From positions 6,803,001 through 6,867,000 of the forward strand of contig NZ_CP108455.1 of NCBI RefSeq assembly GCF_036241575.1: a stretch of 64,000 nt of DNA, given 5' to 3'. The notes beneath the pieces are model-generated. The model was not told the DNA's origin, ran no database searches, and saw only the letters and a list, made by a program, of their open reading frames with translations. The position numbers were made by a program, and so were the translations under genes. This document shows positions 48,849 through 63,615 of this stretch, piece by piece. Source of the DNA: Streptomyces sp. NBC_01267 (GTDB taxonomy: Bacteria; Actinomycetota; Actinomycetes; Streptomycetales; Streptomycetaceae). How positions within the stretch are numbered: the first letter of the stretch is position 1; every line of letters begins with the position of its first letter.

Positions 48849-49034
48849 GGGTCTCCTCGGCGGGGTCGGCTCCGGCGACGGGCGGTCAGCCTCACAGCTC
48901 AACCTCTGTGTACTTTCTGAACGCGGGCCCGGAGCGCCGGGCGGCGCGGGCGCGCCCTCCCCTCCCCACCGGGGTTCGGCCCGCCGTCCCACCCAGGCGC
49001 CGTCCCGGGACCGTCCCGCGTTCCGTCCCGGAGT

Positions 49035-49052
49035 TCAGAGGAAACTCAGAGG
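49035..49052 (+). promoter_or_regulatory. Direct repeat upstream of the second response-regulator gene
   Basis: TCAGAGG at 49035 and again at 49046, 11 bases apart, 48-65 bases before the start at 49100. It is a likely autoregulatory site for the OmpR-type protein encoded downstream, and may also act on the divergent flavin cassette. Confidence 0.5.
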
Positions 49053-49099
49053 CGAGGCCGCCCGCGCGGACCGCCCGCGCGGGGGATGCTGGGCAGATC

Positions 49100-49830
<731 letters not shown>

Positions 49831-49834
<4 letters not shown>

Positions 49835-51255
49835 GGCGCCCGCCCCCGCACACCCTGCGCGGCCAGCTCACCGCCGGACTCGTCCTGCTGCTCGCCGCGG
49901 CCTGTCTGGCGGTGGGCGTCACCACCGCCCTCGCCCTCCAGGGATTCCTGCTCGGCAGGCTGGACCAGCAACTGGAGTCCTCCGGCGGCCGGTTCGCCGC
50001 CAGCCTGGAGCACGAGGCCCGGCCCGACGCGGACAACCGGCCCGACACCCGCGGCCAGGCCGATGCCACGTTCGGCGCCCGGTTGCTGAACGGCGGGGTC
50101 ACCCAGGCCGCCGTGGTCGACGAGGCGACGGACCACGAGGTGACGCTCAGCACGCACGACCGGGCCGCGCTCGCGGACGTGCCCGTCGACGACCGGGGCC
50201 ACGACGTCCGGCTGTCCGCACTGGGCGCCTACCGGGTCACCGCCGTGCACGGCGACGACCACGACATCATGATCACCGGTCTGCCGCTGCGTCCCGTCGA
50301 GGAGACGGTCCACCGCCTCGAAGCGGTCGAGGCCGCGGTGTTCGGCGCGGCGCTGATCGCCACCGGTGTGGCGGGAGCCCTGTGGGTACGGGTCTCCCTG
50401 CGCCCCCTGCAACGCGTCACCTCACAGGCGGTGAACGTGGCCCGGCTGCCGCTCGCCAGCGGAGAGGTCGCCATGCCCGCCCCGCTGCCGCTCACCGACC
50501 CACGGACCGAGGTCGGCCGGGTCGGTACCGCGCTGAACCGGATGCTCGGTCATGTCGAGGACGCCCTCACCCGCCGCCAGGCCAGCGAGGAACGGCTCCG
50601 GCACTTCGCCGCTGACGCCAGCCACGAACTGCGCACCCCGGTGGCCAACATCCGCGGCCACGCCGAACTCGCCCTGCGCCACGACGGTTCCGTACCCGCC
50701 GAGGTCCGGCACGCGCTGGAGCGCATCGAGTCCGAATCGCAGCGGATGAGCCGTCTCGTCGACGATCTGCTGCTGCTCGCCCGTCTCGACGCCGGGCGCC
50801 CGCTCGAACACGAGACGGTCGATCTGACCCTGCTGGTGCTCAACGCGACAGCCGACGCCCGCGCCGCGGGCCCCGCACACCGCTGGCTCCTCGACCTGCC
50901 CGAGGAGCCGGTGACCGTCACCGGCGACGCCCACCGGCTGCAGCAGGCCATCGGCAATCTGCTCGCCAACGCGCGGACCCACACCCCGAACGGCACCGAG
51001 GTGACGGTCACGCTCACCGCCGACGGCGCCACCGCCCGGCTCACCGTCACCGACAACGGCCCCGGCATCCCCGCGGAGCTTCAGCCGGAGGTCTTCGGCC
51101 GCTTCGTCCGCGCGGACCACAGCCGCTCCCGCAGTACCGGGAGCACCGGCCTCGGCCTCGCCATCGTGCACGCCGTGATCACCGCGCACGGTGGCACCGT
51201 CACGCTGGCCAGCGAGCCCGGCCGCACCATGTTCCTGCTCACCCTCCCGCAGTGA
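49831..51255 (+). CDS. Two-component sensor histidine kinase
   Basis: A 474-residue kinase with TM1 near residues 10-35 (AGLVLLLAAACLAVGVTTALAL), an extracytoplasmic domain of about 125 residues and TM2 near 165-190. HAMP follows, then the H-box ASHELRTPVANIRGH, the N-box NLLANARTHTPNG and G-boxes DNGPGIP and STGLGLAIVHAV. GTG start overlapping the regulator stop. The signal is unknown; the redox cassette opposite suggests an envelope or redox cue. Confidence 0.9.
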
Positions 51256-51328: not shown

Positions 51329-52495
51329 TCAGCCCATGGCCCCCGGCAGATCCCCGGCGACGATGTCCCGCATCACCTCGCTGGGACCGGCGGCGATGGT
51401 CGCGGCCCGTGCGTCCCGGTACACCCGGGCGGCCTCGGACCCGTCCTGATATCCGTGGGAACCCTGTAACTGCAGGCTCAAGTCGGCCATTCGGCAAGCC
51501 AGTTCGGTGGTGTACAGCTTGGCCATCGAGCATGCGGTCACCGGGAGTTCCCCCTGCTGGAGGAGCCAGGCCGTGTGGTGGACCAGCTGGCGGGCCGCCT
51601 CCAGTTCCGTCGCCAGTCCGGCGAGCCGGTGCCGGGGCGCCTGGAGTCCGGCGAGCGGCCCGTCGAAGATCCTGCGGCCACGGGCGAAGCGGAGGGTCTG
51701 TTCGAGGCAGCGGTCCATTCCGCCCAGCGCGAGGGCCGCAGCCGCGAGCCGTTCGAGCTGGAGTCCGCGCATCAGGTAGTAGAAGCCGCTGTCCTGCCGC
51801 CCGACGAGGTTCCCCGCGGGCACGCGCACCCCGTCGTACGTCACGCCCGCGGTACCTGCCGCGCGCCAGCCGAGGGTGGGCTGCGGTTCTACGGTGACTC
51901 CGGAGGCGTTCGCGTCGATGACGAGCAGCGACAGTCCGGTCCGGCCGCTGTGCGCCCCGTCGGTCACCGGGGTGGTGCGGACCGCGGTGACGTGGAAGTC
52001 GGCCGTGGTGCCGTTGCTGACCATGCTCTTCGCGCCGCGCACGACGTAGTGCTCGCCGTCCCGCGAGGCCGTGGTGGACAGCCCGGACAGGTCCGATCCC
52101 GCCCCGGGTTCGGTCAGGGCCAGCGCGGCGACGCGTTCACCCCGGACGGCCGGGGTCAGATAGGCGGCGCGCAGTTCCGGACTGCCGACGGCCCCCAGAT
52201 AGTGCGTCGCCATGTAGGCGTGGACGGAGACGGCAGCCCGCATGCCGCCGTACCCGGTGCGGCCCAGTTCCTCCAGGAACACGACCGAGGTGAACAGATC
52301 GCGGTCGGTGCCGCCGTTCTCCCGTGAGTGGAGCAGCCCGAGGAGATCGTGGTCCGCGAGCGTCTTCCACAGGGTGCGCGGCACACGGCACTCCCGTTCC
52401 CAGACATCGGCGGCCCCCTCCGTCTCGGCTGCCAGTACGGCACGCACCTCCTGGCGGAAGGCGTCGTGCTCGGCTGTGAAGTACGGGGAACGCAT
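51329..52495 (-). CDS. Acyl-CoA dehydrogenase-like flavoprotein of the halogenation locus
   Basis: A 388-residue acyl-CoA dehydrogenase-fold protein with ALTEPGAGSDLSGLS (residues 126-140) and RRIFDGPLAGLQAPRHRLA. The usual C-terminal catalytic Glu is absent (AAGPSEVMRD at 368-377), but Glu248 in LMRGLQLERL aligns with the helix-G base of isovaleryl-CoA dehydrogenase, so the enzyme should be active. It is last in the halogenase operon, 89 bases after the thioesterase. By analogy with KtzA of kutzneride biosynthesis, which closes a cyclopropane on a carrier-bound gamma-chloro amino acid, it may cyclise or desaturate the chlorothreonyl thioester. A simple desaturase is the main alternative. Confidence 0.82.
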   Translation of the reverse strand: MRSPYFTAEHDAFRQEVRAVLAAETEGAADVWERECRVPRTLWKTLADHDLLGLLHSRENGGTDRDLFTSVVFLEELGRTGYGGMRAAVSVHAYMATHYLGAVGSPELRAAYLTPAVRGERVAALALTEPGAGSDLSGLSTTASRDGEHYVVRGAKSMVSNGTTADFHVTAVRTTPVTDGAHSGRTGLSLLVIDANASGVTVEPQPTLGWRAAGTAGVTYDGVRVPAGNLVGRQDSGFYYLMRGLQLERLAAAALALGGMDRCLEQTLRFARGRRIFDGPLAGLQAPRHRLAGLATELEAARQLVHHTAWLLQQGELPVTACSMAKLYTTELACRMADLSLQLQGSHGYQDGSEAARVYRDARAATIAAGPSEVMRDIVAGDLPGAMG

Positions 52496-52584
52496 AGGGT
52501 CCGGGCCTCTCCGCGGGTGTGGGAACGGGGGGTGAGGGGATGTCAGACGGCGCGGGGATTTCGGGCGGCCGTCACCGGTGGGCG

Positions 52585-53433
52585 TCACCGGGTCGGGACG
52601 CGCCCCGCCGCCGGGAGCAGTTCGCCGCGCAGCAGCGTCAGGAAGCGCTCCGGGTCTTCGTGGAGGGTGAAGTGACCTCCGGACAGATGGTGCGCCCGCA
52701 CGCCCAGCGGCGCGTACCGCCGCCAGCCGGCGACCGCCTCGGGCGGCGCCATGACATCGTCGGACGCGTCGAACACGGTGAGCGGTACCGGCAGGGGGAG
52801 CGGTTCGCGCCACGGCCAGGTCTGGGCCAGTTCCAGATCGGCTCGGAGCATCGGCTCCAGCAGGCCCAGCAGCGCGCGGTTGCGCAGGACCTCGGGAGGC
52901 GACCCGGCCAGCGCGGCGAGATCGGCGGCGAACCGGTCGCGGGGCACGTCGTGGAGACCCGGGTGCGGTGGCGGTACGTCGGGGGCCCGGCAGCCGGCCA
53001 GGATCAGGCGCTCGGGCAGCTGCGGGGCGGGTGGTGCGGCGCCGGACGGCGGGGCGGTGGACGCCCCGCGCATCGTCAGTTCGTACGCGAGCATGCCGCC
53101 CAGGCTGTGCCCGAACAGGACGTACGGCGCGGGGACTTCCCGGGCCAGTGCGTCGGCCACCACGTCCACCAGCGTCGTCCACGAGGTGAACGGGCGCTCC
53201 CGGATGCGGCTCTCACGGCCGGGCAGCCGTACGGCGACGAGCTCCACGTCCGCGGGCAGGCGCGCCGGCCAGTCCCGGAACACCGAGGTCCCACCGCCCG
53301 CGTGCGGCAGGCACACCAGCCGCAGGGCGGCGTGCGGGCGGGGCAGGGGCCGGTGGAAGAGGCCGCTCGGCGAAGTCGTGTGCGGCGGCCCGGGTCCGTC
53401 CGGGGCGGACGCCGCTCCGGCGGGGGCCGTCAC
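52585..53433 (-). CDS. Type II thioesterase
   Basis: A 282-residue editing/release thioesterase. LRLVCLPHAGGGTSVFRDW is the TEII signature, GHSLGGMLAYEL holds the Ser nucleophile, SDDVMAP the Asp and LSGGHFTLHE the His. The N-terminal ~35 residues are Pro-rich. The GTG at 53433 overlaps the methyltransferase-carrier gene by 4 bases. In this locus, which has no type I thioesterase, it may release the finished amino acid from a carrier domain or clear misloaded ones. Confidence 0.88.
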   Translation of the reverse strand: MTAPAGAASAPDGPGPPHTTSPSGLFHRPLPRPHAALRLVCLPHAGGGTSVFRDWPARLPADVELVAVRLPGRESRIRERPFTSWTTLVDVVADALAREVPAPYVLFGHSLGGMLAYELTMRGASTAPPSGAAPPAPQLPERLILAGCRAPDVPPPHPGLHDVPRDRFAADLAALAGSPPEVLRNRALLGLLEPMLRADLELAQTWPWREPLPLPVPLTVFDASDDVMAPPEAVAGWRRYAPLGVRAHHLSGGHFTLHEDPERFLTLLRGELLPAAGRVPTR

Positions 53434-54938
53434 CGTGCGCCGGGCCGGTCGGGGTGCGGTGCGCCTCCCGGCGTACCGGCGGATTCCTCCGGTGGCAGTC
53501 CGGCCTCCAGCGCGGCGGCGATCTCCGCGAAGTTGTCGGCGGTGAAGACGGTGTCCGGTGCCAGCACGTCCTCCCCGAGCCGGTCCTCCAACTGCGCCAG
53601 CAGACGGACCGCGGTGAGGGAGTTCCCGCCGAGGGCGAAGAAGTTGGCGTCGGGGCGCACGGTGCCGGGACCGAAGATGTCCGTCCAGATCTCGGCGAGT
53701 ACGGCGGTGCCGGGCCCGGACGGGAGCTGCGGCGAGCCGCCGTCCCCGGTGGGCGCGGTCCGGCGGGCCTCGTCGAGATCCGCCACGACGGCGAAGCGGC
53801 CGGGCACCGCGAGGCCGGGGGCGTTCCGGGCCGCGAGGTCCCGGAGTTCGCGTTCCAGCACCCGCAGGGTGGGGCCACCGGGCCGGCCGGCGGTGTTCGG
53901 CGGTGCGGGCGGCAGCTGCCGGGCCGGACGGTGCGGCGCGTAGGCGTAGACATTGTGACAGGGCGTCAGCACGAGCCGGGGGTCCTGGTCGTGAGAGACC
54001 TCGAAGCCCCGGTCCCGCAGCAGCGAGACCAGTTCCTTCAACCGTCCGTCGAGGTCGTGGACTTCCATGGCGATGCGGTCGATGCGGCTCCACGACGCGT
54101 CGTCGATCCCCGCCAGTACCTCGGCCTCGGCCTTCTCCACGTCGATCTTCAGCAGGTCGATCCGCTCCAGCCGCTGTTCGGCGATCACCCGCGTCAGGGT
54201 GCTGACCTCGCAGCGGCGGGCCTCTGCCGTCAGCCGGTCGGCGGCGAGCCTGCCGAGCTGCGGGCCCTGAGTGGCCTCTTCGCCGGTGACGAGGTAGCGC
54301 CGCAGCACCTCGACGTCCTCGTCGGGATGCGCGAACCGGCCGGACATCACGCTGTTGCCGGGGTAGTAGGTGAAGTCGCTCTCGCCCGTGACGCTGCCCA
54401 GGGCGCAGTTCAGTACGGTGACGTCGAGTCCGTACAACTCGGCGTTGAGGGCGACGGCCGCCGCGAGTTCGGCGACGGGTTCCACGGCGACGATCCGGGC
54501 GCCGGGACTGGCCAGGGCGGCGCGGAGGGTGAACATCCCGATGTTGGCGCCGACGTCCAGCACGACCGCGCGGTCCGGCAGGGTGATGCCGTGTCGCAGA
54601 TAGGCGTTGTCGGTGAAGATCTCGCGGTACAGGAAGTCGGTCTCCGTGCGGCTGACTCCGGCGACGAGCAGGTCGTCCGCCGGTTCGTGCCAGCTCAGCC
54701 GCCCCAGCCTCCCGGCGGCCTCCAGTGCGGCGGCCCGGTGCAGGAGCGCGGCGGCTTCCGGGTCGGGGAGGAGGCAGGCGGTGCGGTCCGGGGCGCCCAG
54801 GGCCTGTCCGAAGACCGGCCGGACAGGTCCCAGGACATCGGCGTCCAGGACGGCGGGGTGGGTACGGAACGCCGCTGTCAGGGCTCGGTCCGCCTCGGCG
54901 TCGGCGGCCGGTGCGACGGGAGTGGTCAGGTCGGTCAT
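53430..54938 (-). CDS. FkbM methyltransferase-carrier (T) fusion protein
   Basis: A 502-residue fusion. Residues ~90-335 form an FkbM-type SAM methyltransferase: VVLDVGANIGMFTL (126-138), AVEPVAELAAAV and DLLKIDVEKAEAEVL (261-275). Residues ~355-400 (LRVLERELRDLAARNAPGLA, then VPGRFAVVADLDEARR) resemble the A9-A10 end of an adenylation domain whose NGK lysine is lost. A carrier domain with phosphopantetheine Ser440 (NFFALGGNSLTAV) follows. The remnant suggests descent from an A-MT-T module. It is the probable acceptor of the chlorothreonyl group and the place of O-methylation (inference). Both ends overlap neighbours by 4 bases. Confidence 0.85.
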   Translation of the reverse strand: MTDLTTPVAPAADAEADRALTAAFRTHPAVLDADVLGPVRPVFGQALGAPDRTACLLPDPEAAALLHRAAALEAAGRLGRLSWHEPADDLLVAGVSRTETDFLYREIFTDNAYLRHGITLPDRAVVLDVGANIGMFTLRAALASPGARIVAVEPVAELAAAVALNAELYGLDVTVLNCALGSVTGESDFTYYPGNSVMSGRFAHPDEDVEVLRRYLVTGEEATQGPQLGRLAADRLTAEARRCEVSTLTRVIAEQRLERIDLLKIDVEKAEAEVLAGIDDASWSRIDRIAMEVHDLDGRLKELVSLLRDRGFEVSHDQDPRLVLTPCHNVYAYAPHRPARQLPPAPPNTAGRPGGPTLRVLERELRDLAARNAPGLAVPGRFAVVADLDEARRTAPTGDGGSPQLPSGPGTAVLAEIWTDIFGPGTVRPDANFFALGGNSLTAVRLLAQLEDRLGEDVLAPDTVFTADNFAEIAAALEAGLPPEESAGTPGGAPHPDRPGAR

Positions 54939-56233
54939 GTGTCCCTCTCGGTCGTCCCGTGGATGTCCCGCATGAAGTCCGACAACAGGCCCACGAGTCC
55001 GGGGTCCGCGCCGAAGGCCGACAGGTGATCCCCGTGCGGCATCATCCGCAACGTCGCGCACGGCAGCCGCTCCGCGACCTGGACGGACCCCTCGGGATGG
55101 GCGGTCGTGTCCTGTTCGCTGGAGACGACCAGCGTCGGCTGCCGCACCTCCCTGAGGAGCGGACGGTAGTCCGTGCTCATGATGACGCCGTTGAGGAGCC
55201 CGTAGCGGTGCATCAACTCCGGTGAGGCATAAGGGTGGAGAAGGTGGTGGGCGACCTCGGGACGCAGCGCGTCCAAGGCCTGTGGCCTGCGCATCATCCG
55301 GTGCAGGCCCTCGGCGTGCCGGGGGCTGCGGCTCGCCATCGCCAACAGGCCCTCGACATCACGCTGATGGGGTGTCTTGGGGGCGTCCTCGCCCAGTTCG
55401 TAGTCGCCGTGCCACAGGCTGAGCGAGGTCACCCGGGGCGAGGCCGCGGCAGCGGCCAGCGCGAGGGCCGCGCCGCCGCACAGCCCCATGACGTGCGCCT
55501 CGCCGATGCCGAAACCGTCGAGGACGGCAAGGACGTCGGCTGCCTGCGCGGCGAGGTCGTGCCCGGTCAGGGCGGGCAGCCCCGGACCGTCCCCGGCGGC
55601 GAACATGCCACGGCTCTCCCAGGTCACCACCTGGCAGGTCCCGGACAGCGCCCGCAACCAGGGGGCCGCCAGGCCGACCGGCATGCCGCAGGCCATCACC
55701 ACCACCACGGCGGGTGCGTCCGCCGCCCCTGCCCGGTAGCCGCGCAGCGGGGTGCCGTCGTGGGCGCGCAGCGGGACCGGCCGGCCCGGGGGAGCGGCGT
55801 GTACGGCCCGCACGGCGCGGTCGACCGCGGAGGCGTCCGCGTGGATCACCGCCTCCGCCGGCGCCGTGCCGAGCGCGCGGGCCAGCCGTCTGCTGACGGC
55901 CAGTTCCACGGACCACAGCCCGTCGCCGGACGGGACGACAGTGACCCCGGGCATGTCCAGCCGGGCCGCGAGCGCGTCCAGCGCCGCTTGCAGCACCCGT
56001 ACGGAGCCAGGGTCCGACCCCGCAGGCGGAGTCACCCGCAGGCGCTCGGGCACGGCGCTCAGGAGCGGTTCCAGATCGAGCAGGGCGGCGGCGAGTTCCT
56101 GCAGCGGTACGGCGTCCGCGCTGCTCTGCGCCGATCGCGGGCCGCTGCTCTGCGCCGATCGCGGGCCGTTGCCTTGTGACAATCGTGGACCGGCCTCTGT
56201 GTCAGGCATGGTTGATGCGCTTCCCTCCTCCAT
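54935..56233 (-). CDS. SyrC-like aminoacyltransferase (alpha/beta-hydrolase with Cys nucleophile)
   Basis: A 432-residue alpha/beta-hydrolase-fold protein with an N-terminal helical extension of about 150 residues. The nucleophile elbow is VMGLCGGAALAL, so Cys252 replaces the usual Ser; Asp375 (SSEQDTTAH) and His403 (MPHGDHL) complete the triad. SyrC and CmaE, which shuttle halogenated aminoacyl groups between carrier proteins in syringomycin and coronamic acid synthesis, share this Cys design. Here it would move chlorothreonine from the A-T protein to the methyltransferase-carrier protein. I chose the ATG at 56233 (AGAGG upstream); an ATG at 56209 is possible. A 24-base duplication lies in the N-terminal coding region. 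Confidence 0.82.
   Translation of the reverse strand: MEEGSASTMPDTEAGPRLSQGNGPRSAQSSGPRSAQSSADAVPLQELAAALLDLEPLLSAVPERLRVTPPAGSDPGSVRVLQAALDALAARLDMPGVTVVPSGDGLWSVELAVSRRLARALGTAPAEAVIHADASAVDRAVRAVHAAPPGRPVPLRAHDGTPLRGYRAGAADAPAVVVVMACGMPVGLAAPWLRALSGTCQVVTWESRGMFAAGDGPGLPALTGHDLAAQAADVLAVLDGFGIGEAHVMGLCGGAALALAAAAASPRVTSLSLWHGDYELGEDAPKTPHQRDVEGLLAMASRSPRHAEGLHRMMRRPQALDALRPEVAHHLLHPYASPELMHRYGLLNGVIMSTDYRPLLREVRQPTLVVSSEQDTTAHPEGSVQVAERLPCATLRMMPHGDHLSAFGADPGLVGLLSDFMRDIHGTTERDT
56120..56167 (-). repeat. Perfect 24-base tandem duplication in the transferase gene
   Basis: 56120-56143 and 56144-56167 are identical. In the protein they give two consecutive GPRSAQSS units near residue 25-38, in a disordered, low-complexity tail ahead of the folded part. 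Confidence 0.85.
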
Positions 56234-56307
56234 CGGACCGCCTCTCGGTACGGGGAGCCGACCGCCCGGCGACCCGGTGGCCACGGACACCGCCCGCGTA
56301 CGGTCCC

Positions 56308-57251
56308 TCAGACGCCCGGAGCCCGGAACGGGCGGTTGCGTGTGGTGTGCGTCGCGATCCGGTTGTGGGTGTGCGTGTTCTCGCCGTGCACCAGGACCGC
56401 GCCGTAGCGGTCGAGGCTCACTCGGCCTCCGTACTCCTCGATGGAGTCCGTGCCGGGGTAGACCTCCACGGAGGTGGGCACGTAACGGGAGGCGAAACCC
56501 ATCCGCATGTCGCGGCTCCGGCCGCTGTGCGGGTGGGAGGCGTGCATCAGGGTGGACCAGAAGACGATGAACTGGCCCGCCCGCATCTCCATGTTCACGG
56601 CCTGCGACTCGTCAGGGGTCCAGTCCTCGTCGATCTGGAGCTCGCGGTAGTCGTAGCCGAAGAAGCCACGGCGAATCCCGTCCTTCTCCACGGAGTTGAC
56701 CTTGTCCGGCACGTAGTGCATGCGCTTGGTCTCGTCGTAGTACATGGTGCGGTGGGTGCCGGGGATGAACTGCAGGCACCCCATATCCACGCTCGCCTCG
56801 CTGAAGGCGGTCCACACGGTGATCGTGCCACCGAAGTCGGAGCCGTCCGGCCACTGGATCTGCGGGGTGCCGGAGGCGTTGGCGAAGGTGTCGGCCTGGT
56901 GCCAGTCCGTTCCCTCGTCGCCCGGGTACTTCGGGAAGAACTCGGTGCGCCAGCACAGCACGTCCGGCCCGAGGATGCGGCTGACCCGGTCCACGATCTC
57001 CGGCCTGGTGATGTGGTCGGCGAGGAAGTCGGAGTCGAGATGCCGGTCGTAGTTGGCGATGTTGGTGGTGCCGGACACCGCGGCGCGGTCCTGGTAGACG
57101 GCGTCCGTGCGGTCCAGCAGCCGCAGCCGTTCCCGCCGCCAGATGTCCTTCATCTCGTCCGGTTCGTAGAGCGTGAACGGACCCGCGTATCCGCGCGCGT
57201 GGAAGTCCGCCAACTGCTGTGCGTCGAGGGCGAAGCTCTCTGCCTGCGAAG

Positions 57252-57255
<4 letters not shown>
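56308..57255 (-). CDS. SyrB2-type non-heme Fe(II)/2-oxoglutarate-dependent halogenase
   Basis: A 315-residue PhyH-fold protein that follows SyrB2 almost residue for residue. The iron site is [12 protein letters not shown], so His119-Gln-Ala121 stands where hydroxylases have HxD; the missing Asp leaves room for chloride and is the hallmark of aliphatic halogenases. The distal ligand His238 lies in [12 protein letters not shown] and the 2-oxoglutarate Arg257 in MGFASRYVP, each offset by three from SyrB2 (116, 118, 235, 254). It should chlorinate the methyl group of threonine on the A-T protein, whose stop overlaps its start (ATGA). Oxygen, Fe(II), chloride and 2-oxoglutarate are required in the family. 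Confidence 0.95.
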
Positions 57256-59192
<1,937 letters not shown>

Positions 59193-59403
59193 TCACGTGT
59201 CCCCTCAAGAGAATTCGGAATGCGGTAACGGATCGCACAATGCATTACGAGCAACTTGATCGTCACGGGCCGTCGATTAGGCTGCCACTTTGTCCGGTTG
59301 AGCGTCAACCCCCTCTGTTGACAGCCGGTCAGGGTTGGCTGGTACCCGTTTAAATGCATTACCTCGAAACCACAGGAGTCTCAGCAGCCCCTTTCGGCTT
59401 CGG

Positions 59404-59442
59404 CCGGATCGCGGTTTCCCGGTCGGGGAAACCGCGATCCGG
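59404..59442 (-). terminator. 17-base-stem terminator after the ATP-grasp-like gene
   Basis: Perfect arms 59404-59420 and 59426-59442 with a 5-base loop, 24 bases past the stop of the minus-strand gene ending at 59466. It separates this gene from the halogenase operon, so the two are transcribed independently. The remaining ~210 bases to 59192 are relatively AT-rich and should hold the operon promoter. Confidence 0.8.
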
Positions 59443-59465
59443 TGGCTTTGTGCGCGGCGGCGCGG

Positions 59466-61181
59466 TCAGCCGCGGTGGCGCAGCACCGTGCGCAGCAGCC
59501 CCTCGTCGTACAGGTGCTCCTCCAGTGCCAGTACGGCCTCAGCGGCCTCCTGGGGCTCCTGGCACGCGACCGCGATCAGGCCCCAGCGGGACGGCACGGA
59601 GGTGATCACCCGCGTGTGGTGCCCGGTGTCCGCGGCGTCGACGGCGGCTTTCAGCCACCGCAGGTCGGTTCCCGCAGTGGGCCGGACCACCTTCGTCGCC
59701 GCGTGCACGCCCGCGCCGCGCACCTCGCGCGCCTCCCGGAGGAAGGCCCGGACGTACTCGGCCCCGTTGGACGAGAGGTTCAGGTCCTGCATGCCCACCA
59801 CGGGCCGTTCGCCGAACCGTCCACCGATCCGGGCGATCGCGAAGTCGACCCCGCCCTTGACGAAGCCGAGACTCCGGCCGTTGCCCTCGAAGGCGCCGAG
59901 CAGCTCGCGCATCCCCTCCCGCACGAAGCGGAAGTGCTCCACCGTGATGCCCACGTTCCGGCAGGAGTGCTCGTCGATGTAGACGCTGCCCTCCCAGACG
60001 CTGCCGCGCGTGATCTGGATCGTCGCCCCCTCGGCCAGCCGCCCGGCGACGACGTGGGCGGACGGCGCGAGGATGAAGTCGTAGCCGTCGATCGGGTGCC
60101 GCAGGTAGTCGGTGTGCGCCTCCAGTACGTAGTCCTCCTCGGTCTCCATCGCCTGGCGCGCCAGCGCGCCCAGCGCCTCCTCGTCGCCGAGCGGGACGGC
60201 GGTGCGGATCCTGCTGCCGGTCAGTCCCGTCGCCGGTTTGAAGCAGCCCAGGGGGAGGCCGTAGCGCTCCCGCAGCAGCCGCGCCGCGCCGGCGACCCGC
60301 GCGGTCACCTCGGCCAGGCCGGCCCCGGCCCTGCTGATCGAGTATCCGGGGACCCTCGGGAGCACGACGCCGAACTCGCGGTGGAACGGCGTCAGATGCG
60401 ACTCCGCCGCGAGCAACTCGTACGGATCCGCCCGCCGGGCACCGTCGGCCAGCCCCTCGGCCTCCTCGACGGTGGGGTAGAGCGTCGTCTTGTGGTTCCA
60501 CAGCCGCCCGATCTCCGGACCGTTGGCATCCACCCGCAGACGGGCCGGGCCCGCCGTACGCCGCAGCCAGACCAGGAGGATCTGTGCCTCCAGATCGAGG
60601 GCGAAGAGCCGGACCACGGTGTGCGGGGCTTCGCGCAGGCGGCTCACGATGCGGTGCAGGCCGGTCCGCTCCCCGGACTCGGCATACGTCATGGCCTGCG
60701 TCAGCAGGGCGTGCGTGAGGTAGTAGAACTCCAGGCCGGGAACCTCCACCCCTTCGGCCTCGCTCGCGGCGACCGCCTGCCGCCAGGGCTCGGTACGCCC
60801 GACGACGAGGTCACCCGGTCCGGCGAGATAGACCGCGCGGGCTTCGTTGTACGACGCGAAGTCGTCCGGCGACGTGCCCTCGACGACATGCGCCAGATCG
60901 GCTTCGAAGCATTTCTTCAGGCTGGTGGCGGCACCGATGACGACGGCGGGCTGCTCGCCCCGCAGGGCTCCGTACGGCTCCAGTTCGGCGCGTGCCGCCG
61001 CCGGTACCTGGGACAGATCGAGGCCGAGCAATCGGTGGGAGACCGCCTGCAAATCGTCCGGGGAAAGCACCACGGGCCCGGTACAGAAGCCCTCCCACGG
61101 CACGGTGCGCCCGTCGGGGGCGACGACCGGGACGGGTTCGTCCGCGGCCGTTCGGACGGAACTGGTATATGCCTGCAACAT
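59466..61181 (-). CDS. ATP-grasp-like ligase (putative)
   Basis: A 571-residue protein with no signal peptide. I read the C-terminal 300 residues as an ATP-grasp fold: GLPLGCFKPATGLTGSRI (nucleotide-binding Lys), DYVLEAHTDYL (hinge), and FVKGGVDFAIARIGG ... VVGMQDLNLSSNGAEY (metal-binding Asp and Asn), similar in layout to the NLR-GGTTHP end of PGM1-type peptide ligases. The N-terminal half is unassigned. The ATG at 61181 follows CAGGAGA. Beside the chlorothreonine genes it could join the product to another amino acid. The family call is by eye and the link to the pathway is inferred. Confidence 0.62.
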   Translation of the reverse strand: MLQAYTSSVRTAADEPVPVVAPDGRTVPWEGFCTGPVVLSPDDLQAVSHRLLGLDLSQVPAAARAELEPYGALRGEQPAVVIGAATSLKKCFEADLAHVVEGTSPDDFASYNEARAVYLAGPGDLVVGRTEPWRQAVAASEAEGVEVPGLEFYYLTHALLTQAMTYAESGERTGLHRIVSRLREAPHTVVRLFALDLEAQILLVWLRRTAGPARLRVDANGPEIGRLWNHKTTLYPTVEEAEGLADGARRADPYELLAAESHLTPFHREFGVVLPRVPGYSISRAGAGLAEVTARVAGAARLLRERYGLPLGCFKPATGLTGSRIRTAVPLGDEEALGALARQAMETEEDYVLEAHTDYLRHPIDGYDFILAPSAHVVAGRLAEGATIQITRGSVWEGSVYIDEHSCRNVGITVEHFRFVREGMRELLGAFEGNGRSLGFVKGGVDFAIARIGGRFGERPVVGMQDLNLSSNGAEYVRAFLREAREVRGAGVHAATKVVRPTAGTDLRWLKAAVDAADTGHHTRVITSVPSRWGLIAVACQEPQEAAEAVLALEEHLYDEGLLRTVLRHRG

Positions 61182-61809: not shown

Positions 61810-61812
61810 GTG

Positions 61813-63615
61813 ATGTTCACGACCCGGCCCACCCTCCAGGGCAGCTTCGGCATGGTGTCGTCCACCCACTGGCTGGCCTCGCAGTCCGCGATGGCCGTTC
61901 TGGAGGCCGGCGGCAACGCCTACGACGCCGCCGTCGCCGCGGGCTTCGTCCTGCACGTCGTCGAGCCGCACCTCAACGGCCCGGCCGGTGAGGTGCCGAT
62001 GATCCTCGCCCCGGCGGACGGCCGGGTACAGGTGCTGTGCGGACAGGGCGTCGCCCCCGCGGGTGCCACCGTCGCCCACTACCGCTCGCTCGGGCTCGAC
62101 CTCGTTCCCGGCACCGGACCGCTGGCCGCCGCGGTGCCCGGCGCCTTCGACGCCTGGATGCTGCTGCTGCGCGACCACGGCACCAAGTCCCTCGCCGAGG
62201 TGCTGAAGTACGCCGTGGGGTACGCCGAGGACGGACATGCCCCGGTCGAACGCATCGGCCTGACCGTCGAGTCCGTACGCGAACTCTTCGAGAGCGAGTG
62301 GCGTTCCTCCGCCGACGTGTACCTGCCCGGCGGGAAGTCCCCCGCGCCGGGCGAGCTGTTCCGCAACCCCGCGCTCGCCGCGACCTGGCGCCGGGTGATC
62401 GCCGAGGCCGAGGCGGCGTCCGGCGACCGGGCCGGGCAGATCGACGCGGCCCGGACGGTCTGGCGCGAAGGCTTCGTCGCCGAGGCGCTGGTACGCCAGG
62501 CGGCCAGGCCCACCCTGGACACCAGCGGCAAGCGGCACACCGGCACCCTCACGGCGGCCGACCTCGCCGGGTGGTCCGCGACGTACGAGGAACCCGCGAC
62601 GTACGACTGGAACGGCTGGACCCTGTGCAAGGCCGGCGGCTGGAGCCAGGGCCCGGTCCTCCTCCAGCAGTTGGCGATCCTCCCGCCGGAGCTTCCGCTC
62701 TACGGATCCGCCGAGTACGTCCACCTCCTCGTCGAGGGCTGCAAGCTCGCGATGGCCGACCGGGAAGCCTGGTACGGCGACGCCGCCGGCGTACCGCTCG
62801 ACACGCTGCTCTCCGCCCCGTACAACACGGAGCGCCGCGCCCTCGTCACCGACCGGGCCTCGCACGAACTGCGCCCCGGCAGCCCCGGGGGCCGCGAGCC
62901 GCGGCTCAGCAGGCAGGCCACCGCCGTCGCCGCTGGTGAGCCCGGCTTCGACGCGTTGGGCATCCCGGCCGCCGGGGCGGGGGAGCCGACCGTCGCCCGG
63001 GACGGCGCCACCCGGGGCGACACCTGCCACCTCGACATCGTCGACCGCTGGGGCAACATGATCTCCGCGACCCCGAGCGGCGGCTGGCTCCAGTCCAACC
63101 CGGTCGTCCCCGAACTGGGCTTCCCGCTCGGCACCCGGCTCCAGATGGCCTGGCTGGACGAGGGGCTGCCGAACTCCCTCACCCCCGGCTGCCGCCCGCG
63201 CACCACCCTCACCCCGTCCCTGGCACTGCGCGACGGGGTCCCGGTGCTCGCCTTCGGTACGCCGGGCGGCGACCAGCAGGACCAGTGGCAGCTGCACTTC
63301 TTCCTCGCGGTGGCGCTCGGCGCGACCGTACGGGGCGGCCTCGACCTGCAAGGCGCCATCGACGCCCCGAACTGGCACAACGACTCGTTCCCCGGTTCCT
63401 TCCACCCCCGCACCATGCGGCCCGGCAGCGTCACGGTCGAGTCCCGCATCGGGCAGGACGTCATCGACGAGCTGCGCCGCCGCGGCCACGACGTGACGGT
63501 CGGCGACGCCTGGTCGGAAGGCAGGCTGTGCGCGGTCGCCCGGGATCCCGGAACCGGCGTACTGAGCGCTGCGGCGAACCCCAGGGGAATGCAGGGTTAC
63601 GCCGTCGGTCGCTGA
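61813..63615 (+). CDS. Gamma-glutamyltransferase family protein (no signal peptide)
   Basis: A 600-residue Ntn-hydrolase of the gamma-glutamyltransferase superfamily, lacking a signal peptide, unlike the secreted ggt at 8207. LEAGGNAYDAAVAAGFVLHVVEPHLNGPAGE is the N-terminal core, and the autoprocessing Thr is in TRGDTCHLDIVDRWGNMIS. Substrate-loop residues differ from glutathione enzymes, so it may be an acylase or a pathway-specific hydrolase. The ATG at 61813 has GAGGTG upstream; a GTG one codon earlier is equally usable. Divergent from the ATP-grasp-like gene; membership in the biosynthetic locus is uncertain. Confidence 0.84.
   Translation: MFTTRPTLQGSFGMVSSTHWLASQSAMAVLEAGGNAYDAAVAAGFVLHVVEPHLNGPAGEVPMILAPADGRVQVLCGQGVAPAGATVAHYRSLGLDLVPGTGPLAAAVPGAFDAWMLLLRDHGTKSLAEVLKYAVGYAEDGHAPVERIGLTVESVRELFESEWRSSADVYLPGGKSPAPGELFRNPALAATWRRVIAEAEAASGDRAGQIDAARTVWREGFVAEALVRQAARPTLDTSGKRHTGTLTAADLAGWSATYEEPATYDWNGWTLCKAGGWSQGPVLLQQLAILPPELPLYGSAEYVHLLVEGCKLAMADREAWYGDAAGVPLDTLLSAPYNTERRALVTDRASHELRPGSPGGREPRLSRQATAVAAGEPGFDALGIPAAGAGEPTVARDGATRGDTCHLDIVDRWGNMISATPSGGWLQSNPVVPELGFPLGTRLQMAWLDEGLPNSLTPGCRPRTTLTPSLALRDGVPVLAFGTPGGDQQDQWQLHFFLAVALGATVRGGLDLQGAIDAPNWHNDSFPGSFHPRTMRPGSVTVESRIGQDVIDELRRRGHDVTVGDAWSEGRLCAVARDPGTGVLSAAANPRGMQGYAVGR

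Follow-up and report, generated by a model that had tools for sequence, protein, structure and literature searches.

Within the 64,000-nucleotide stretch of the Streptomyces sp. NBC_01267 genome analysed here (the window; 6.803-6.867 Mb on contig C1; genome size 8.07 Mb), we identified a seven-gene cassette on the minus strand, reading from 61181 to 51329, which joins known enzyme classes in a new combination and includes one unusual protein architecture. In gene order it encodes an ATP-grasp-fold ligase, a protein with an adenylation (A) and a carrier (T) domain (A-T), an Fe(II)/2-oxoglutarate halogenase, an α/β-hydrolase with a Cys nucleophile, an FkbM methyltransferase joined to a T domain (FkbM-T), a type II thioesterase (TEII) and a flavoprotein of the acyl-CoA dehydrogenase (ACAD) type. 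An initial annotation had placed these seven families in one block, as they are found to lie, and had not recognised the gene set as a described pathway: the literature searched yielded no description of it, but the set also occurs in relatives of this genome. We propose, tentatively and at somewhat less than an even chance, that the locus builds a Thr-derived aminocyclopropane on two carriers, releases it and likely couples it by means of the ligase. Our best guess at the product is a 1-amino-2-methoxycyclopropane-1-carboxylate unit, a latent electrophile for which we know of no natural occurrence.

The A-T protein carries a Thr-type code (Table 1; code positions mapped by motif), in agreement with the earlier reading, and among proteins of solved structure it matches Thr1 of the 4-chlorothreonine strain OH-5093 (5n9w, E 1.8e-109) and CytC1 (E 4.1e-105), both outscored by the linear gramicidin synthase (E 4e-142). 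The adjacent halogenase scores 481.6 bits against TIGR01762 (cut-off 226.3) and is closest among solved structures to SyrB2 (524 bits, E 1.4e-156), with CytC3 at 396.5 bits (E 9.1e-118). Its facial motif is HQA, Ala replacing the Asp of HxD, which bears out the SyrB2-like HxA enzyme annotated at first. HQA is present in 45 of the 48 aligned halogenase rows and HQV in the other three (L068-L070), with L071, L073, L074 and L100 duplicating other rows of the alignment. The A-T protein would load L-Thr and the halogenase, to judge from its family and the neighbouring Thr code, would chlorinate C4 of the T-bound residue.

The FkbM methyltransferase and the second carrier

The fifth protein had been taken for a simple fusion of a methyltransferase with a carrier. 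Both the FkbM and the PP-binding domains are present, but it is the tail of an interrupted A domain rather than a free fusion. In homologous modules the FkbM domain is inserted between the A8/HPAV segment and the A10 stretch, and the flanks of the insertion align to the window protein, which starts past the A8 position, lacks NGK and has lost the A10 lysine. A pattern check recovered this lysine in 31 of 34 complete A(FkbM)T modules. The stub of Streptosporangium carneum (L078) has a recognisable A10 in which the lysine is replaced (GEID), and the FkbM-T of S. phaeoluteigriseus has GQVD at this position. By these alignments, FkbM-T is an interrupted adenylation domain that has been beheaded, with methyltransferase and T domain retained, and not a working interrupted A domain. 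A structure model (predicted local distance difference test score, pLDDT, 82.4) has modules of the pyochelin synthetase as its top two Foldseek matches, with poor superposition (TM-score ~0.2); the sequence evidence for the architecture is the stronger of the two.

Since FkbM-T lacks an adenylation core, it would need to be loaded in trans, presumably by the Cys hydrolase, whose gene lies immediately before it. The nucleophile elbow of this hydrolase reads GLCGG and is accompanied by candidate Asp and His residues, as the Cys triad annotated earlier implies; G-x-C-G-G recurs in 22 of the 23 aligned hydrolase rows, the remaining one (L033) being unaligned at the site. We liken the enzyme to SyrC and CmaE by motif rather than by sequence comparison, taking SyrC likewise to have a Cys nucleophile. 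It would shift the 4-chlorothreonyl group from the A-T protein onto the second carrier within the beheaded A domain.

As to the methyl step, we checked 80 FkbM loci (the best 80 kept) for an upstream in-frame A core and its code. The code was readable in 60, some of them closely related modules rather than independent events, with 21 Thr-type, 15 Ser-type, 18 Glu-like and 6 other codes, the Ser-type and Glu-like classes being assignments that we presume; the remainder comprised 13 loci without a full in-frame core and 7 without an A match, cassette-type stubs included. Because the complete modules thus mostly have Thr, Ser or Glu-type codes (54 of the 60 readable ones), methylation of a side-chain oxygen is favoured, and side-chain O-methylation, as first suggested, is most likely the FkbM step. 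In the cassette the embedded FkbM domain would methylate the side-chain hydroxyl of the chlorinated Thr, and the O-methyl group would prevent retro-aldol cleavage during the step that follows. Inserted methyltransferase domains work on T-bound substrates, and KtzH O-methylates Ser, according to the review PMC11355689.

The Glu-like codes before 18 of the 60 readable modules would accord with an FkbM domain that is a relic or methylates a carboxyl or amine, leaving only the T domain of FkbM-T to matter. We regard this as highly unlikely, given that GANIG, part of the S-adenosylmethionine site, and DLLKIDVEKAE are conserved in every one of the 17 aligned rows holding an FkbM domain, and that the 67 invariant columns among 24 aligned FkbM-T proteins fall mostly in the FkbM part. 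The Glu-like codes themselves have the form D(A/S/T)KDxG(L/V)V and stand before the inserted FkbM at L103, L107, L112, L117, L121, L130, L132, L133, L136-L139, L141, L142, L144, L146, L148 and L150; the methylated site there is perhaps a carboxyl.

The flavoprotein, the ligase and alternatives to the proposed ring closure

The ACAD-like flavoprotein has the N, middle and C domains of its family and a catalytic Glu at the isovaleryl-type position, in agreement with the isovaleryl-type dehydrogenase annotated at first. All 14 aligned window-type and Ile-type rows keep this Glu and have Ala or Gly at the site of the medium-chain Glu. It fits removal of an alpha proton, needed by ring closure and desaturation alike. 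Genetically, the flavoprotein goes with a carrier-dependent halogenase and with a T domain, and five further halogenase loci (L054-L057 and L060) bring together a halogenase, the A code DAFFLGVTF and a TEII with an ACAD that shares 45-51% identity with that of the window. We take DAFFLGVTF to be an Ile-type code and the gene set of these loci to resemble kutzneride KtzA-D, in line with the analogy to cyclopropane pathways drawn in the initial annotation; these five loci stand proxy for KtzA in the comparison. In a tree of 55 ACAD rows, which includes 27 of the 40 own-genome matches, none of these 27 falls among the halogenase-linked rows.

Because of the halogenase setting shared with the Ile-coded loci, we prefer ring closure to desaturation, although it is the least certain step of the proposal. 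The Glu would remove the alpha proton, and the resulting carbanion would expel the C4 chloride to give a 1-amino-2-methoxycyclopropane-1-carboxyl thioester. The TEII, whose GHSLGG motif agrees with its annotation, would then release the product or clear misloaded carriers, and the ligase, to judge from its fold, would couple the product to an amino acid or peptide.

Were the flavoprotein instead a true dehydrogenase, C2-C3 desaturation would yield a 4-chloro-3-methoxy-dehydroamino acid that keeps its chlorine and is then ligated. The three-domain ACAD fold and the isovaleryl-type Glu base suit this reading, and the NCBIfam prolyl-carrier dehydrogenase is among the matches, albeit at 185.2 bits, far under its cut-off of 650. 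However, the relatives of known context include the ACADs of the Ile-code halogenase loci, a setting like that of the kutzneride cyclopropane, where we presume KtzA to act, and no electron-transfer partner is present among the seven families; we consider desaturation unlikely.

An outcome in which 4-chloro-O-methylthreonine is itself the warhead is quite unlikely in our estimate; the flavoprotein would then be a proofreading oxidase or have a different acyl partner as its substrate, and the ligase would yield a chlorinated dipeptide. 4-Chlorothreonine is reportedly a Streptomyces product, the structure of Thr1 of OH-5093 is solved, and A-T, halogenase and hydrolase matches occur with neither FkbM-T nor ACAD at L031, L033, L035, L039 and L048/L049, the last also with a TEII match. 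Yet every one of the seven genomes with an FkbM-T of the window type also has the flavoprotein gene, which in the window directly follows those for FkbM-T and TEII, so that the flavoprotein most likely serves the FkbM-T carrier. The least probable alternative that we weighed has the 2-alkoxy aminocyclopropane as a mere intermediate, its ring opening and rearranging, with a shift of the skeleton, to a final antimetabolite of the 4-methoxy-vinylglycine type; chemical reasoning alone speaks for it, in that a ring with an oxygen donor on one carbon and a carboxyl acceptor on the next would open easily.

The ligase has no Pfam or NCBIfam match at E <= 0.001 and no PDB sequence match at E <= 10; its structure model (pLDDT 91.1) matches ATP-grasp ligases in a structure search, which accords with the ATP-grasp-like enzyme annotated earlier. 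On the strength of this model it may join the product to an amino acid or peptide. With BesA of the beta-ethynylserine and PGM1 of the pheganomycin pathway it has the ATP-grasp fold in common at 12-13% identity and no sequence-level match, and we class it as probably working like these enzymes, not as a member of their family. More distant relatives (39-54% identity) occur at loci that gave no match to the remaining seven of the window proteins used as queries. Among them, L185, L187 and L190 (~40%) represent another small locus, in which the neighbours are a DAO-type flavoprotein and a methyltransferase-type gene of class I, recognised by Pfam for L187 and L190 and by similarity only for L185.

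Several observations weigh against the proposal of ring closure followed by ligation. The Glu base and the Ala or Gly at the medium-chain site fail to separate ring closure from desaturation, and an own-genome ACAD (L158) also carries the Glu. On the tree, the window-type and Ile-type ACADs form no single supported clade, the joining forks standing at 89/86 or open; the window type takes four changes and the Ile type two; 12 database homologues, their neighbourhoods unopened, are also taken in; and the ACAD of the Thr-coded halogenase region L050 (30% identical) groups with own-genome ACADs. The 18 FkbM modules that follow Glu-like codes indicate that FkbM targets are not hydroxyls alone. For the ligase model, PurK, which is no peptide ligase, ranks first by Foldseek E-value, and BesA is absent among the 50 matches listed. 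Finally, the ligase is missing from the cassette of one other genome (G124), which shows that the unit does not depend on ligation.

Conservation and two proposed exits

Halogenases above the cut-off occur at 46 places in 41 of 392 genomes of the genus; of the 45 that lie elsewhere than in the window, 40 were fetched and searched with eight window proteins. The gene-neighbourhood search called for at the outset found the set conserved in several Streptomyces genomes: the full seven genes recur in G358 (a same-species companion of the window genome), G349, G146, G245 and G278, and G124 holds six of them. An FkbM-T of at least 58% identity is found in seven of the 392 genomes (G000, G358, G349, G146, G278, G124 and G245), always beside the halogenase cassette and never without it in this sample, the other listed matches reaching at most 43%. 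The ligase is present at 63% identity or more in six of these seven, and at 39-54% in ten other genomes; both searches scored three candidates per genome, so that a more distant copy could escape. The co-occurrence of the seven genes exceeds chance. In the database searches, 31 of the 120 flavoprotein homologues listed (of 1486 found) seemingly come from the same assemblies as the FkbM-T homologues listed (120 of 269), and 10 of 51 ligase homologues likewise, both judged by eye and as co-occurrence, not adjacency.

A scan of named genomes (best 80 loci) recovered six of the seven genes in S. prunicolor and S. cinerochromogenes, with no ligase found in the fetched stretches of either, and more distant five-gene versions lacking the thioesterase in S. 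phaeoluteigriseus and Streptosporangium carneum. In G124 (L040 with L191) and S. cinerochromogenes (L077), the six genes adjoin a synthetase with a DIP2-like AMP domain at its start, which we read as a fatty-acyl-AMP ligase; the synthetase neighbouring the S. phaeoluteigriseus version has a similar start. The G124 locus also has Ser-coded modules and, between the unit and the synthetase, a penicillin-amidase-type protein, which suggests a lipid prodrug part that is later cut off. The window genome, G358, G349, G146, G245 and G278 have the ATP-grasp ligase in place of the synthetase. There is no condensation domain among the seven cassette genes, as had been stated, but this holds for the ligase-bearing version only, the six genes of some relatives adjoining peptide synthetases. 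It would appear from these positions that the amino acid unit is common to all and that its exit differs, by ligase or by synthetase.

A broader reading, somewhat doubtful in our view, is that of a mobile unit making a donor-acceptor aminocyclopropane by cryptic chlorination of Thr, in which the beheaded A domain has become a methylating carrier that stands alone and is charged in trans, with a ligase or lipopeptide-type synthetase as exit. If true, the proposal would introduce an amino acid warhead that is new, as is the means of moving and tailoring it, a methyltransferase carrier derived from a broken adenylation domain. The small conserved six-gene unit with its varied downstream partners would offer a natural test bed for trans-loading and ACAD-like ring closure, and a handle on finding the compounds that carry it in S. 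cinerochromogenes and S. prunicolor.

The copies also vary in their surroundings. At L036-L038 the ligase gene lies past the end of the ACAD gene on the opposite strand. A transporter gene of the BenE type accompanies L036 (by Pfam), with similar genes at L072 and L042; a gene of the sodium/proton-exchanger type accompanies L040 and L072 (by Pfam), with similar ones at L036 and L038. A divergent lineage, made up of S. phaeoluteigriseus (L042/L100) and Streptosporangium carneum (L078), has the A-T, halogenase, hydrolase, stub-FkbM and flavoprotein genes, to which L078 adds one of carbamoyltransferase type.

Known systems and gene layout

A part of the cassette has its counterpart in each of the SyrB1/SyrB2/SyrC, Thr1, Ktz, Cma, Cyt and Bes systems. 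The syringomycin genes of Pseudomonas syringae share a Thr-coded A-T protein, an HxA halogenase and a hydrolase-type carrier-to-carrier shuttle (roles as outlined in a portion of PMC8949500), whereas the neighbours in the cassette are the A-stub/FkbM-T carrier, the flavoprotein and the ATP-grasp ligase. With the 4-chlorothreonine genes of Streptomyces sp. OH-5093 it shares a related Thr adenylation enzyme (Thr1) and the same amino acid. OH-5093 is said to have the halogenase Thr3 and 4-chlorothreonine as its known product. The Thr1 paper is among those cited in the relevant part of PMC8949500.

Kutzneride KtzA-KtzD/KtzH of Kutzneria share a halogenase acting on an Ile-type residue on the way to a cyclopropane (an excerpt of PMC8407142) and an O-methyltransferase within an A domain, KtzH (PMC11355689, in part). 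They differ from the cassette in their Ile-type substrate and in having, with KtzH, a complete A domain that is part of a synthetase, whereas the cassette uses Thr and has the beheaded A domain alone with its T domain. We take KtzA to be the ACAD of the kutzneride pathway. Coronamic acid CmaA-CmaE, as we understand the gene roles, share the A-T protein, halogenase, carrier shuttle hydrolase and cryptic chlorination leading to a cyclopropane; the ring is reportedly closed by CmaC and not by an ACAD, and there is no methyl step, whereas the cassette has FkbM. CmaB and KtzD are termed cryptic halogenases in a section of PMC8407142, which also gives aminobutyrate as the substrate of CytC1-CytC3 and describes BesD as halogenating free lysine, in contrast to the carrier-bound Thr proposed for the cassette. 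The armentomycin/cytotrienin enzymes CytC1-CytC3 share the adenylation and halogenase families with the cassette, and CytC3 differs in its lower halogenase score (396.5 against 524 bits for SyrB2).

Table 1. Genes of the cassette, with positions in the window
Predicted product	Position	Strand	Features
ATP-grasp-fold ligase, predicted amino acid/peptide ligase	59466..61181	-	571 aa; no sequence family match
A-T didomain, SyrB1/Thr1-like	57252..59192	-	Thr-type code DFWNVGMVH
Fe(II)/2-oxoglutarate chlorinating enzyme, SyrB2-like	56308..57255	-	HQA motif
α/β-hydrolase, predicted aminoacyl shuttle (SyrC/CmaE-like)	54935..56233	-	Cys nucleophile, GLCGG
FkbM methyltransferase within C-terminal A-domain stub, with T domain	53430..54938	-	without A core, without A10 Lys
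Type II thioesterase	52585..53433	-	GHSLGG
ACAD-like flavoprotein, predicted substrate a T-bound amino acid	51329..52495	-	KtzA-like setting

The cassette is likely a single transcription unit, because three gene pairs (A-T/halogenase, hydrolase/FkbM-T and FkbM-T/TEII) overlap by 4 bases. The TEII start is a GTG at 53433 that overlaps the FkbM-T stop, and the hydrolase may start at 56233 or 56209. A gamma-glutamyltransferase gene (61810-63612, plus strand) lies head to head with the cassette and was rejected as a member, being a common gene of the genus at other places. At the other end, ~75 bases separate the end of the flavoprotein gene from that of a response regulator/sensor kinase pair, read by eye at 48908-51255 on the plus strand.

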